DNA from: Sphingomonadaceae bacterium
GTDB taxonomy: Bacteria > Pseudomonadota > Alphaproteobacteria > Sphingomonadales > Sphingomonadaceae
Length of the DNA: 34,067 bases
Direction: 5' to 3'
NCBI GenBank assembly: GCA_016462305.1
Contig: JAEMTM010000004.1
Location: forward strand, 1-34,067
Shown here: piece after piece, positions 2,986-8,282 of the stretch
Layout: each line of letters begins with the position of its first letter
How positions within the stretch are numbered: position 1 is the stretch's first letter
Program-made: the position numbers and the translations under genes
The notes under the pieces: generated by a model
Database searches by the model: none
What the model saw: the letters and a program-made list of their open reading frames with translations, nothing else
Told to the model about the DNA's origin: nothing

Positions 2986-3010
2986 GGAACCAAATGGCCA
3001 CAGCGATGTT
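2986..3010 (+). promoter_or_regulatory. EcfG-type promoter GGAAC-N16-TGTT for the GlsB/YeaQ-like gene
   Basis: ggaac caaatggccacagcga tgtt, about 30 bp upstream of ATG 3041. Confidence 0.65.
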
Positions 3011-3040: not shown

Positions 3041-3310
3041 ATGATTATTATCACCATTCTGATCGTCGGCGGCATTTTGGGCTGGCTGGCCAGCATCGTC
3101 ATGCGCACCGATGGGCAGCAAGGCATTTTCTTGAACGTCGTTATTGGCATTGTGGGTGCTTTTTTGGCTGGCTTTGTCATCACCCCCCTGATTGGTGGCG
3201 CACCAATCACCAGCGGTAATTTCGATATCCGTTCGTTGGTCGCGTCATTTTTGGGCGCAGTCGTTCTGTTGGCGATCGTCAATATGTTCCGTCGCGGCAG
3301 TGTCCGTTAA
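3041..3310 (+). CDS. GlsB/YeaQ/YmgE family stress-response membrane protein
   Basis: MIIITILIVGGILGWLASIVMRTDGQQGIFLNVVIGIVGAFLAGF...: characteristic transglycosylase-associated/YeaQ-type small membrane protein; AAAGGGAG ribosome-binding site. Confidence 0.85.
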   Translation: MIIITILIVGGILGWLASIVMRTDGQQGIFLNVVIGIVGAFLAGFVITPLIGGAPITSGNFDIRSLVASFLGAVVLLAIVNMFRRGSVR

Positions 3311-3644: not shown

Positions 3645-3676
3645 AGGGCGCGTCGGGCAACCGACGGGCCCTTTTT
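3645..3676 (+). terminator. Rho-independent terminator with GCAA tetraloop
   Basis: AGGGC-g-CGTCGG-GCAA-CCGACG-g-GCCCT followed by TTTTT. Confidence 0.75.
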
Positions 3677-5385
3677 CATGCTGACCCTAGGCGCTCAAGC
3701 GTCGAAGCTGCGGGCGTATCTGGCAGCGGGAATTTCAACGCGACTTTTGTCCCGCTCCCCGCGCTGCTTGATATTGACAGCTTGCCGTCTACTTGGGTGG
3801 CAAAACCGCGCATCAATTCTGTACCCATTTGTGCGTTGTCTTCCATGACGACATACCCTTGCCCATTGTCCGAAATGTCCAGAATGGCACTCTCGCCATC
3901 CAGATCGAACCTTAGGGTGATTGCTCCACACACGCCCTTGGGGAATGCATGGCGAAAGGCGTTGGTGACCGCTTCAACCACGAACAGCGTCAATGGGACG
4001 GCATATTCGATGGGAACCGGGAAATTGCTTGCGTGGCAGATCAACTGAACTTGAGTCATTGACCGGCTCGCACCGCGCAACTGCGCGCATAGCTCAGCCA
4101 TCAGGTTATTGATTGGCACTTCGCCGTGTTCATAACCATTATCTTGTTCGTACAAAAGCCGGTGGATGAGCGCCAAAGCGTTTATCCGCGCACGGGTTTG
4201 TGCCAACACCTCCTGCCCGGGGCCTTCACGCACATGGCCCGATTGCAATGTCAACAGGCTGTTGATGATCTGCAGGTTGTTTTTGACCCGATGGTGCACT
4301 TCACGCGTCAGCAGCGATTTTGCCTCCAACGCTTGCGTCAGATCGTTATTACGGCGGTCGATGACGTCGGCCATGCTGTGCAAATCTGCACTAAATGCGG
4401 CTATTTCTTGGGGCGCACGATCAAATTTGCGTCGGTCCCCTGTGAAATCACCTTGGGCGAAGCGCCTCGAAACAATCCGCAATTCGCGCAACCATATCAA
4501 GGCCAGACGATTGGTTCCGACCCAGATGGCAATCGATGCAAGCAATATGGAAATCAACGGTAACAAGATACTGGCGCGCACTTGCGACACCGCCGCTGCC
4601 ATTAATGTATCCCGCGGTTCTGCATAGACGACAAACAGGTCAGAACTGTAGAGCTTATGCAGCGTATAAATCCATGATATACCCTTGCTATCGCGGATCT
4701 CGACGGGTTGGTTCTGGCGTGCTGTGACGTCGGGCGCAAAGGGCAATGGCCGGTCGCCACTGGCCACATTTGTGCCGTCGCGGGTCACAATCGCCAACGT
4801 CCCCGCGCCGCCGCGTGCGGCTTTGCGCAACCCGTCGCGCAGATATTTTACGTCAATGGCCGCAGTGATTGTGCCGTCCGATTGACCATCGGCGGTGCGC
4901 AACGGCAGGATAAGGAACAAGACATTCCTTTGGGCTATGGGCGCGAAAATGGGCGCTTTTGTAATGGTCATACCATTCGCACTGACCCCGCGTTGCCACC
5001 AACCTTCGTTCGCAATATTGACTGGCTTGGAAAGCGGAATGGCAGAGCAGCGCACCGTCCCATCTGCTGCTGTTCGGGCTATATTGGTGACGGGCGGATA
5101 ATTGCTTAAAGATATGCGTAACGCAGAGTCGCAATCATCGGTCATACGGATGACGTCACTGTTCGTTGTGTGCGCCAGCAACAGATGCTGTGCAATTACA
5201 AATGGGTCGCGTTGCCGTTCGGCAACCGCACTTGCCGTGCCTTTCAACCGGTCAAAGGCCAATTTTCGCGTATTTTCCAAAGTCGACATGCCTTGGATAA
5301 AACTTGCAACAGCCACAGGCAGCAATGCGGCGAACACGACCAGAATAAGCCCGTGTCGCATGGTCATGGGTCGCAAAAATGCCAT
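3676..5385 (-). CDS. Membrane sensor histidine kinase, HisKA_2/HWE type (PhyK-like, general stress response)
   Basis: N-terminal TM, periplasmic sensory region, second TM, HAMP-like segment, [23 protein letters not shown]-box, C-terminal ATPase; next to ecfG/nepR/phyR. Confidence 0.85.
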
Positions 5386-5450: not shown

Positions 5451-6065
5451 TCAAATGCTTGGCATGGGGTTAGGGTGCTTGGGCGATGTGCTCCGAACCG
5501 GCTTTGATCTGGCGGGCTGCTTCAAGACGGCTTCATCGGGACCGTTTATCAACGCCGCCAATGCCGCGCGGCCGCGCGCTAGCCTGCTCTTGACCGTACC
5601 GATGGCGCAGCCGGTAATGGCCGCCGCCTCTTCGTAGCTGGCACCGCCCGCGCCTACCAGCATCAGTATCTCGCGTTGTTCAGCGGGCAGCTTTTGTAAT
5701 GCCTTTTCAACATCGCTCATGTGGATGTGGTGTTGCTGCGGCGGTGCCTCCACCAGCAGCCGTTCGGCGGCCTCGGGGTCCCAACTCGTCATCCGCGCAT
5801 TTTTCCGCATCGTTGTATAAAACTGATTGCGCAATATCATGAACATCCACGCCCGGAAATTGGTGCCGGGGGTAAAGCTTGCATGCGCGGCCCATGCCCG
5901 CATCATCGCCTCTTGCGCAAGATCGTCCGCAAGTTCCCGATTGCCGCATAGTCCGCGTGCAAAAGCACGCAAAGACGGGATAAGCGCGACCATCTCGGTT
6001 CGAAAATCATCGGATGCATCGCGCTTTTCAGATATGGGGCGCGATTCCACCGGCAAGGCACTCAC
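5451..6065 (-). CDS. ecfG: ECF sigma factor, EcfG family (general stress response)
   Basis: Sigma70 region 2 (GNRELADDLAQEAMMRAWAAHASFTPGTNFRAWMFMILRNQFYT) and region 4 (LPAEQREILMLVGAGGASYEEAAAITGCAIGTVKSRLARGR); GTG start overlapping the nepR stop (GTGA). Confidence 0.88.
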   Translation of the reverse strand: MSALPVESRPISEKRDASDDFRTEMVALIPSLRAFARGLCGNRELADDLAQEAMMRAWAAHASFTPGTNFRAWMFMILRNQFYTTMRKNARMTSWDPEAAERLLVEAPPQQHHIHMSDVEKALQKLPAEQREILMLVGAGGASYEEAAAITGCAIGTVKSRLARGRAALAALINGPDEAVLKQPARSKPVRSTSPKHPNPMPSI

Positions 6066-6241
6066 GAAAATTTCTTGGAGGTCGATATCTTGGCATCGAT
6101 TTGGTCCAGAAGGTCAAGAAAGTCTTCAGGGACAGGTTCATTCGCAATGCTGTCATGCATCTGGCGTAACGCCGCAGTGAGTGAATCAAATTCTGGGTTC
6201 ATTGCCTCCCCCGCTTTCCGCTTGCGTTTATTGATAGCCAA
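6062..6241 (-). CDS. nepR: NepR family anti-sigma factor (TTG start proposed)
   Basis: C-terminus ANEPVPEDFLDLLDQIDAK matches the NepR core; GGAGGGGG ribosome-binding site upstream of TTG 6241; alternative ATG at 6202. Confidence 0.8.
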   Translation of the reverse strand: MAINKRKRKAGEAMNPEFDSLTAALRQMHDSIANEPVPEDFLDLLDQIDAKISTSKKFS

Positions 6242-6398
6242 TTGACCCCCTCCGTCATTCCAAGCGCCCGGCAAAGTGCCGGACCCAGGCTGACAATATT
6301 CTGTTGTTATACCCATGGTTCAATACCACAATTCGGGTAGGTGAAGATTTTTATCATAGGCAATTAAGCAATTAAAGACGATATTGTTCCATATCGGG

Positions 6399-6450: not shown

Positions 6451-7233
6451 ATGTCATTCAGACAGCAACTGGCATCACAATTGCCATATCTTAGGCGTTA
6501 TGCACGGGCATTGACCGGGTCACAGACACTGGGTGATGCGGCCGTGCGCGAAACATTGGAAGCGTTATTGGAAGCTCCTGAAGAATGGGATGAAGCAGCT
6601 CCGGCCAAAACCGAGCTGTTCAGAACATTTCATCGAATCTGGAACAGCGAAATGATTATGCCGTTCGAATCGCGCGGTCGCAGCGGTGTGATCGCGCAAT
6701 TTCCCGTACAGCGCCGACAAAGTTTGCTGCTGGCCACGGTTGAAGGTTTTACTTTCGCCGATGTGGGCGTGATTTTGGACATGAGCCAAGACGATGTGCG
6801 CCAACATGTTCAGGCGGCACGCAGCGCGATCGAAGATGCGCTGTCTGCGCGTGTGCTCATCATTGAAGATGAATCGATCATCGCGCTGCACATTAAGCAG
6901 ATTGTAGAAAGCCTCGGCCATGAAACAATCGCCATTGTGCGCACCCGGGCAGAGGCGGTGGCCAAGGCGCGTGACGAACGGCCAGAGCTTATACTGGCCG
7001 ACATCAGCCTTGCCGATGGTTCAAGTGGCATTGATGCCGTGAAAGACATATTGGCCGAACAGACGGTGCCCGTGATCTTCATTACGGCCTTTCCGGAACG
7101 CCTGCTTACCGGCGAACGTCCCGAGCCAACCTATCTGATAACCAAGCCTTTTGAACCGGAAACTGTCATCGCCACCATTGGTCAGGCGTTGCTGATGCAC
7201 CGCGATGTCGACATAAATTCAAAAGCTGCATAA
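6451..7233 (+). CDS. phyR: PhyR-type response regulator (sigma-like N-terminal domain plus receiver)
   Basis: N-terminal sigma-like domain (FRQQLASQLPYLRRYARALTGSQ...) and C-terminal receiver (VLIIEDESIIALHI...LILADISLADG...VIFITAFPE...ITKPF). Confidence 0.92.
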   Translation: MSFRQQLASQLPYLRRYARALTGSQTLGDAAVRETLEALLEAPEEWDEAAPAKTELFRTFHRIWNSEMIMPFESRGRSGVIAQFPVQRRQSLLLATVEGFTFADVGVILDMSQDDVRQHVQAARSAIEDALSARVLIIEDESIIALHIKQIVESLGHETIAIVRTRAEAVAKARDERPELILADISLADGSSGIDAVKDILAEQTVPVIFITAFPERLLTGERPEPTYLITKPFEPETVIATIGQALLMHRDVDINSKAA

Positions 7234-7240
7234 TTTTTTG

Positions 7241-7265
7241 GGAACAATGTCGCGACACTGTAGTT
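7241..7265 (+). promoter_or_regulatory. Possible EcfG-type promoter GGAAC-N16-AGTT downstream of phyR
   Basis: ggaac aatgtcgcgacactgt agtt in the phyR 3' intergenic region, same spacing as the phyR promoter. Confidence 0.5.
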
Positions 7266-7271
7266 TGCTTT

Positions 7272-7388
7272 TCGAAACAATTTTTTCAGGTCAACAAATG
7301 GGTAAAAGCAAATGTTGACCAGCTGGCTGCCCCCCCTTCTAGGCCAGCGTCCTAACACCCCGGCCTAAACGCCGGGGTGTTTCCTTTT
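7272..7388 (+). ncRNA. Candidate small RNA with C-rich loop (GsrN-like by analogy), phyR-M23 peptidase intergenic region
   Basis: EcfG-like motif at 7241-7265 followed by hairpins GGTCAACA/TGTTGACC (7289-7320), GCTGGC-TGCCCCCCCTTCTAG-GCCAGC (7322-7348) and an intrinsic terminator (7354-7387); no convincing ORF. The 5' end is estimated from the promoter motif. Confidence 0.5.
7354..7387 (+). terminator. Strong Rho-independent terminator
   Basis: AACACCCCGGC-ctaaac-GCCGGGGTGTT followed by TTCCTTTT. Confidence 0.9.
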
Positions 7389-7415: not shown

Positions 7416-8282
7416 TCAATTGGGTGGCAATAATAGCATCGGATCAATGCGGGCGCTGTTCCATTTCATGCCCCAGTGTAGATGCGGCCCGCTGGCTCTG
7501 CCCGTGGCGCCGACGCGGCCAATGACTTGGCCTTGCCGCACCAGGTCGCCTTCTTTGACCAGCAATTCGGACGCGTGCAAAAATGCACTGTTCAAACCCA
7601 TGCCATGGTCGATCATCAGCAAATGACCCTCCAAGGTGAAGGCATCATTGGCGGCAAGGGTGACCACGCCGTCGGCTGGCGCAACGAAATCCTGGCCTTG
7701 GGCAGCGGCGATGTCCATGCCATTATGATAGCTGCCCGGCGTGCCATTATAGATGCGCTGCGCGCCAAATAGGCCCGATATGCGGCCCGATACGGGACGG
7801 ATGAATGTTTGCCGCCAGCCTGCACTATCGCTGCGGACGGCGCGGGCTGCCGCAATCTGGGCAAGCTCTGCGCTGCGCCGCGCCTGAAATTCGGCGGAGC
7901 TTTTCGCGCCGCCGGTGAGGTTCGCGGCAACATTTTCGATGCGCCAATTGCCCGGAGCGACGGCGATATTGCGCTCCATCTTGCTGCCATCGGCGAGCGT
8001 CGCGACCAGCCTTGCCTCGTTCGGTGCGTCACGGTCAAAACCGATCAGGAAGAACCCGTCCGGACTAAGCTCTAACGCCACGTCGTCTAAAAACAGGCTG
8101 TGTGTCCCTTTGGGTGCGCGGCCGATGACAAGGCCGCCTTGCACAGCAGGGCCGGACATCGAGAAATCGGCCGGGTGTGTTTGGGAAGGAACCTGCGGCT
8201 GGGCGGACAGTTGAGATGCCGCAAAGGCAAGACCGATCAAAGCCGTGATGGTTACGCGCAAAAGCCGGCTTATGCCTGCCAA
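7416..8282 (-). CDS. M23 family metallopeptidase (secreted)
   Basis: Signal peptide; YHNGMDIAAAQGQDFVAPADGVVTLA...GHLLMIDHGMG...GRASGPHLHWGM LytM/M23 motifs. Confidence 0.9.
   Translation of the reverse strand: MAGISRLLRVTITALIGLAFAASQLSAQPQVPSQTHPADFSMSGPAVQGGLVIGRAPKGTHSLFLDDVALELSPDGFFLIGFDRDAPNEARLVATLADGSKMERNIAVAPGNWRIENVAANLTGGAKSSAEFQARRSAELAQIAAARAVRSDSAGWRQTFIRPVSGRISGLFGAQRIYNGTPGSYHNGMDIAAAQGQDFVAPADGVVTLAANDAFTLEGHLLMIDHGMGLNSAFLHASELLVKEGDLVRQGQVIGRVGATGRASGPHLHWGMKWNSARIDPMLLLPPN

Follow-up and report, generated by a model that had tools for sequence, protein, structure and literature searches.

Our analysis of the DNA directly behind phyR indicates that it likely encodes a small RNA serving the general stress response (GSR) of alphaproteobacteria, which would be transcribed by the sigma factor EcfG from a promoter of its own and whose C-rich loop would pair with G-rich mRNA leaders. 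The stretch analysed, which we call the window and to which all bare coordinates refer, is 34,067 nucleotides long. Its source is a Sphingorhabdus-like genome, as judged by phyR, which shares 96% identity with the phyR of Sphingorhabdus sp. WA123a. The locus opens with a PhyK-like HisKA_2 sensor kinase gene (3676-5385, minus strand; Pfam HisKA_2, the best NCBIfam match being PhyK, below its cutoff), followed by ecfG (5451-6065, minus strand; Pfam Sigma70_r2 and Sigma70_r4_2), which adjoins nepR/phyR and encodes the presumed driver of the RNA, and by the gene for the anti-sigma factor NepR (6062-6316, minus strand; Pfam NepR above the gathering score). Then come phyR, the gene for the anti-anti-sigma response regulator (6451-7233, plus strand; NCBIfam PhyR at 325 bits, above the cutoff, with Pfam PhyR_sigma2 and Response_reg), the gap with the predicted RNA (7272-7388, plus strand), and a convergent M23 peptidase gene (7416-8282, minus strand; Pfam Peptidase_M23). 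The adjacency of RNA and peptidase gene is not conserved: at L106 and other loci the sequence downstream is a different one and the RNA persists regardless. Because the downstream gene varies in this way, the RNA is not the shared terminator of a convergent gene pair.

Promoter and fold of the RNA behind phyR

The original prediction had noted GGAAC-N16-AGTT, a set of hairpins, a loop with seven cytosines and a terminator in this gap, and all of these are indeed present where it placed them. The promoter, GGAAC-N16-AGTT (7241-7265, plus strand), consists of a GGAAC box at 7241-7245, a 16-nt spacer and an AGTT box at 7262-7265, so that as a motif match a sigma-EcfG-dependent promoter is there, and it resembles the GGAAC-N16-CGTT of Sphingopyxis (PMC7083833). 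Its -10 box departs from the optimal CGTT; among GSR promoters of Sphingopyxis as many as 14 variants of this box occur, and single departures from CGTT weaken them in vitro (PMC7083833). From the usual distance between -10 box and start, about 6-8 nt, we infer that the RNA begins near 7272.

The sequence from 7272 to 7388 is predicted to form three hairpins with a folding energy of -47.2 kcal/mol, where shuffled sequences average -29.3 (z -5.4; none of 200 dinucleotide shuffles folds as well). The first hairpin (7289-7320, plus strand) pairs GGTCAACA at 7289-7296 with TGTTGACC at 7313-7320. The second (7322-7348, plus strand) has the arms GCTGGCT (7322-7328) and GGCCAGC (7342-7348) and presents the C-rich loop, predicted to span 7329-7341 with the seven cytosines at 7330-7336. 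The third is an intrinsic terminator (7354-7388, plus strand), formed by a hairpin at 7354-7381 and a T-rich tail whose T tract is imperfect.

A run of seven cytosines is by itself unremarkable (one in the window, 4.5 expected), and the strict promoter pattern GGAAC-N16-NGTT occurs five times in the window with 1.3 expected. The significance of the locus therefore rests on conservation, that is, on boxes that are kept and on helices that change on both sides. Another of the strict promoters, GGAAC-N16-TGTT at 2986-3010, precedes an open reading frame at 3041-3310 (plus strand) whose product looks, by eye, like a small membrane protein of the GlsB/YeaQ/YmgE kind.

Conservation, covariation and the fate of the RNA when phyR is lost

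We built a covariance model of the second hairpin and the terminator (R1) on six close relatives. Among 45 genomes of the window's genus, 20 have phyR at E<=1e-50, and in 15 of these 20 the C-loop hairpin and terminator lie directly 3' of phyR as a full-length R1 match, at 95 to 47 bits in eleven genomes and at 33 to 41 bits in four, those of the S. contaminans group; in the other 5 the RNA is missing behind phyR. The strict promoter is found at 14 of the 15 loci. While the invariance of its boxes in this comparison is given by the pattern used, the majority base of the spacer reaches a mean of only 0.62, the boxes scoring 1.0. Four loci, L012, L014, L015 and L098 of the S. contaminans group, have a shorter RNA; there the -35 box falls within the 3' end of the phyR coding sequence, the -10 box comes right after the stop codon, and the promoter is still kept. 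The one exception is S. rigui (L010), which has no recognisable promoter at the locus and in which the hairpins remain.

The helices are likewise maintained. In the alignment of the 15 sequences, 97.3% of pair cells are standard and four pairs, with ten cells, have changed on both sides; shuffled alignments yield a mean of 3.3 such cells and none of 500 reaches ten, and controls with slid partners yield none, the alignment having been fitted to the structure and the sequences being related, so that these counts lean towards structure. Three of the seven pairs of the second hairpin show two-sided changes (94% of its cells paired), and the terminator shows one (99% paired). A C-rich loop is present in all 15 sequences, its C run ranging from 4 to 9 and in some cases broken by T or A. 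The first hairpin behaves differently: it is paired in 85% of cells among the six close relatives, is swapped for a different and itself covarying hairpin in a sister clade, and is absent from the S. contaminans group (L012/L014/L015). Since it varies between clades, the functional core is the C-loop hairpin plus the terminator. Conservation and covariation in relatives had been named beforehand as the test that could refute the proposal, and both core helices pass it with compensatory changes in 15 genomes. What did not hold is conservation of all three hairpins and of a loop of exactly seven cytosines, since the first hairpin is clade-specific and the C count is not fixed.

The turnover of the first hairpin also bears on whether the locus encodes a leader or small protein instead, through a six-codon frame (MGKSKC) that starts with an ATG at 7298 and sits in the first-hairpin loop in close relatives. 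We rejected this reading as very improbable: the frame has no stop in L011, and in other clades the first hairpin is gone and the C-loop hairpin stays.

Two further readings take the sequence as part of the phyR message. In one, there is only a phyR 3' UTR with its terminator, the hairpins shielding the mRNA end and GGAAC being a chance match or a weak internal start. The phyR mRNA must traverse the same terminator, the hairpins of L010 are kept without a promoter, and in L018 and L026 a PRC-barrel gene carries a similar C-loop module in its 3' UTR. However, a plain UTR leaves the conserved C-rich loop unexplained. The promoter boxes, moreover, hold their exact spacing at 14 of 15 loci over a changing spacer sequence, including loci where the promoter reaches across the stop codon of phyR, and we regard this reading as unlikely. 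In the other, a small RNA with the same C-rich loop would be cut from the phyR mRNA, perhaps with an internal promoter besides. The overlap of the RNA with the 3' end of phyR would fit, as would the GCTGGC/GCCAGC stem shared with the PRC-barrel modules, but with a dedicated promoter conserved, processing is unnecessary for making the RNA, and we think this quite unlikely as well. Because promoter and core helices are conserved and the helices covary, the RNA is most likely an EcfG-controlled small RNA, more than a bare phyR 3' UTR. Transcripts of phyR itself probably stop at this terminator too, and part of the RNA sequence would then also be found in the phyR 3' UTR.

None of the 25 genus genomes lacking a phyR match has an intact copy of it, and 11 of these 25, rechecked at E<=1e-10, still gave no phyR; loss of the GSR is thus apparently widespread in the genus. 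Two of the phyR-less genomes contain relics. G015 (L121) retains the end of phyR together with the promoter and an RNA whose terminator stem is broken; G023 (L118) retains just the hairpin and terminator, located behind a different gene. As read from the sequence, these relics show decay, not upkeep, of the RNA once the locus is gone, though simple linkage would by itself make the RNA disappear along with phyR.

With the model R2, matches below about 38 bits outside the genus proved on inspection to be plain terminators with neither an EcfG promoter nor a C-rich loop, and a match in G030 (34.9 bits) was likewise a plain terminator. A pattern search of the genus for an EcfG promoter followed by six cytosines rose above its reversed control at the phyR locus alone. 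Two loci showed other features: L255 (G071) has a pair of terminator-like hairpins, nearly identical and separated by about 145 nt, and in L104 (G007), about 200 nt past the stop found after phyR and on the minus strand, an EcfG-like GGAAC-N16-GGTT is followed by a C-rich hairpin, GCGCTCTGGCC-ATACCCCTCCCCC-GGCCTGAGCGC.

A family-wide EcfG RNA and the origin of the phyR-linked form

In Sphingomonas, a scan of the relatives' loci for C-loop hairpins brought out a conserved RNA of another type, encoded on the opposite strand about 2.1 kb upstream of phyR (L075:789-911, minus strand, and equivalents). Its layout is GGAAC-N16-NGTT, nine nucleotides, a hairpin GGATAGCGA-...CCCCCCC...-TCGCTATCC, and a terminator hairpin that also has a C-rich loop; 13 of its 25 pairs show two-sided changes. 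The corresponding model, R3, matches in at least 155 of 401 Sphingomonadaceae genomes and in 44 of 96 genera, a lower bound given that about ten candidates were scored per genome. Although R3 contains no promoter, a strict EcfG promoter ends 5-8 nt before the match in 48 of the 49 loci examined, where 0.01 would be expected per 60-nt window, and the 49th has GCAAC-N16-CGTT, GCAAC being the other common -35 box. PhyR, NepR or a PhyK-like kinase is encoded within about 2.5 kb in 9 of 20 R3 loci. Rfam had no match to this RNA in the nine loci scanned. Class-wide, with few candidates scored in each of 345 genomes, R3 found the RNA in Sphingomonadaceae only; a match in G614 was a plain terminator. 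Neither RNA is reported from Sphingomonadales in the open-licence literature that we searched. As far as sequence comparison goes, the combination of promoter, C-rich loop and terminator shows itself to be a recurrent design in Sphingomonadaceae.

How are the two RNAs related? They share an EcfG promoter and a C-rich-loop hairpin followed by a terminator. Unlike the phyR-linked RNA, the family-wide one has the 5' hairpin GGATAGCGA/TCGCTATCC and a C-rich terminator loop, and it often lies behind a sensor kinase gene. Searching 59 kb with R3 and filters off ranked RNAs of the S. contaminans group first (L015 at E 0.0014, L014 at 0.006, L098 at 0.016), the window's close relatives L007, L008 and L106 coming in at E 2-4, and R2 with filters off ranked the g2 RNA (L175) first, at E 0.01. 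This reciprocal ranking is marginal and could be explained by the shared design. R3 did not find the family-wide RNA in 24 genomes of the window's genus, and the two RNAs never occurred together in the genus genomes tested; the phyR-linked RNA may substitute for the family-wide one in this genus.

In L026 (4528-4591; S. profundilacus) and L018 (3449-3518; Novosphingobium) a C-loop hairpin with the stem GCTGGC/GCCAGC and a terminator with a C-rich loop lie at the 3' end of a PRC-barrel gene, which has an EcfG promoter and is itself located behind phyR. No homolog of this gene was found in the window's genome. The arrangement suggests a hypothesis in which the promoter and 3' UTR of such a gene could become a separate RNA gene. 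More generally, we tentatively propose, at somewhat short of even confidence, that Sphingomonadaceae have a so far unrecognised family-wide GSR small RNA, with two C-rich loops and under an EcfG promoter, which in Sphingorhabdus was replaced by, or relocated as, the phyR-linked RNA, so that every lineage would have a single EcfG-controlled C-loop RNA. An EcfG-controlled gene, for example the PRC-barrel gene found behind phyR elsewhere, may have supplied the promoter and 3' UTR from which the phyR-linked form arose.

Proposed action and comparison with GsrN

The switch by which PhyR and NepR free EcfG is established for the system (PMC7083833). Once PhyR is phosphorylated and NepR titrated, the freed sigma-EcfG would, judging from the conserved promoter, transcribe an RNA of about 115 nt from just 3' of phyR, which is predicted to end at the intrinsic terminator. 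The second hairpin would keep the C-rich loop open for pairing with G-rich, Shine-Dalgarno-like mRNA leaders, and by analogy with GsrN in Caulobacter such pairing would alter the translation or stability of the target mRNAs. A search of the genome itself for G-run targets returned 60 sites, against 19 in a reversed control. Few of them are at true gene starts, the clearest being at a purF-like gene identified by eye, and there were no stress genes and no telling target set among them, so that we claim no target. If our reading is true, C-loop RNAs under EcfG in Sphingomonadaceae, culturable Sphingomonas included, would make a post-transcriptional arm general in the GSR and would offer testable genes in plant-associated and pollutant-degrading bacteria.

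The natural point of comparison is GsrN of Caulobacter crescentus (Tien et al. 2018, PMC5869019), whose loop pairing was tested there by swaps of loop and target. The GsrN class is further marked by stress-induced, EcfG-dependent expression, a 5' isoform made by cleavage and activation of katG through the loop. Outside Caulobacteraceae, where GsrN has been traced with confidence, there are only nominations in Rhizobiales, and Erythrobacter litoralis, the representative of Sphingomonadales examined, is said to have none (PMC5869019). The original prediction, which saw in the window an EcfG-controlled small RNA at the GSR locus and perhaps an ortholog of GsrN, gains comparative support in its first part, from the promoter at 14 of 15 loci and from covariation, while homology to GsrN is so far conjectural: an Rfam scan of the window, at gathering thresholds and at E<=10, returned only a tRNA, the best sub-threshold matches fell mostly on the terminator hairpin, and the related model R3 matched only Sphingomonadaceae in the class-wide scan.

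In design, the resemblance is close. Both are RNAs of about 100 nt with a sigma-EcfG/T promoter, an exposed cytosine-rich loop and a 3' intrinsic terminator, and while GsrN homologs usually lie near the ecfG-nepR-phyR locus (PMC5869019), the window RNA is directly behind phyR. An EcfG motif, this location, a predicted C-rich loop and a terminator, which characterise the GsrN class, are thus all found in the window. The differences are that its promoter lies at or in the end of phyR, and that the C-rich loop, which is 5' in GsrN, is in the window's clade not in the 5' part of the RNA but in the second of three hairpins; the first hairpin holds it in the S. contaminans group alone. In Rhizobiaceae, putative GsrN homologs were nominated on the same grounds, namely an EcfG site, closeness to the locus and an exposed C-rich loop; unlike these nominees, which have transcript data, the window RNA rests on comparative covariation (PMC5869019). 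We therefore describe the window RNA as GsrN-like by design rather than as a member of the GsrN family, and on its architecture it is reasonable to regard it as a candidate functional analog of GsrN.
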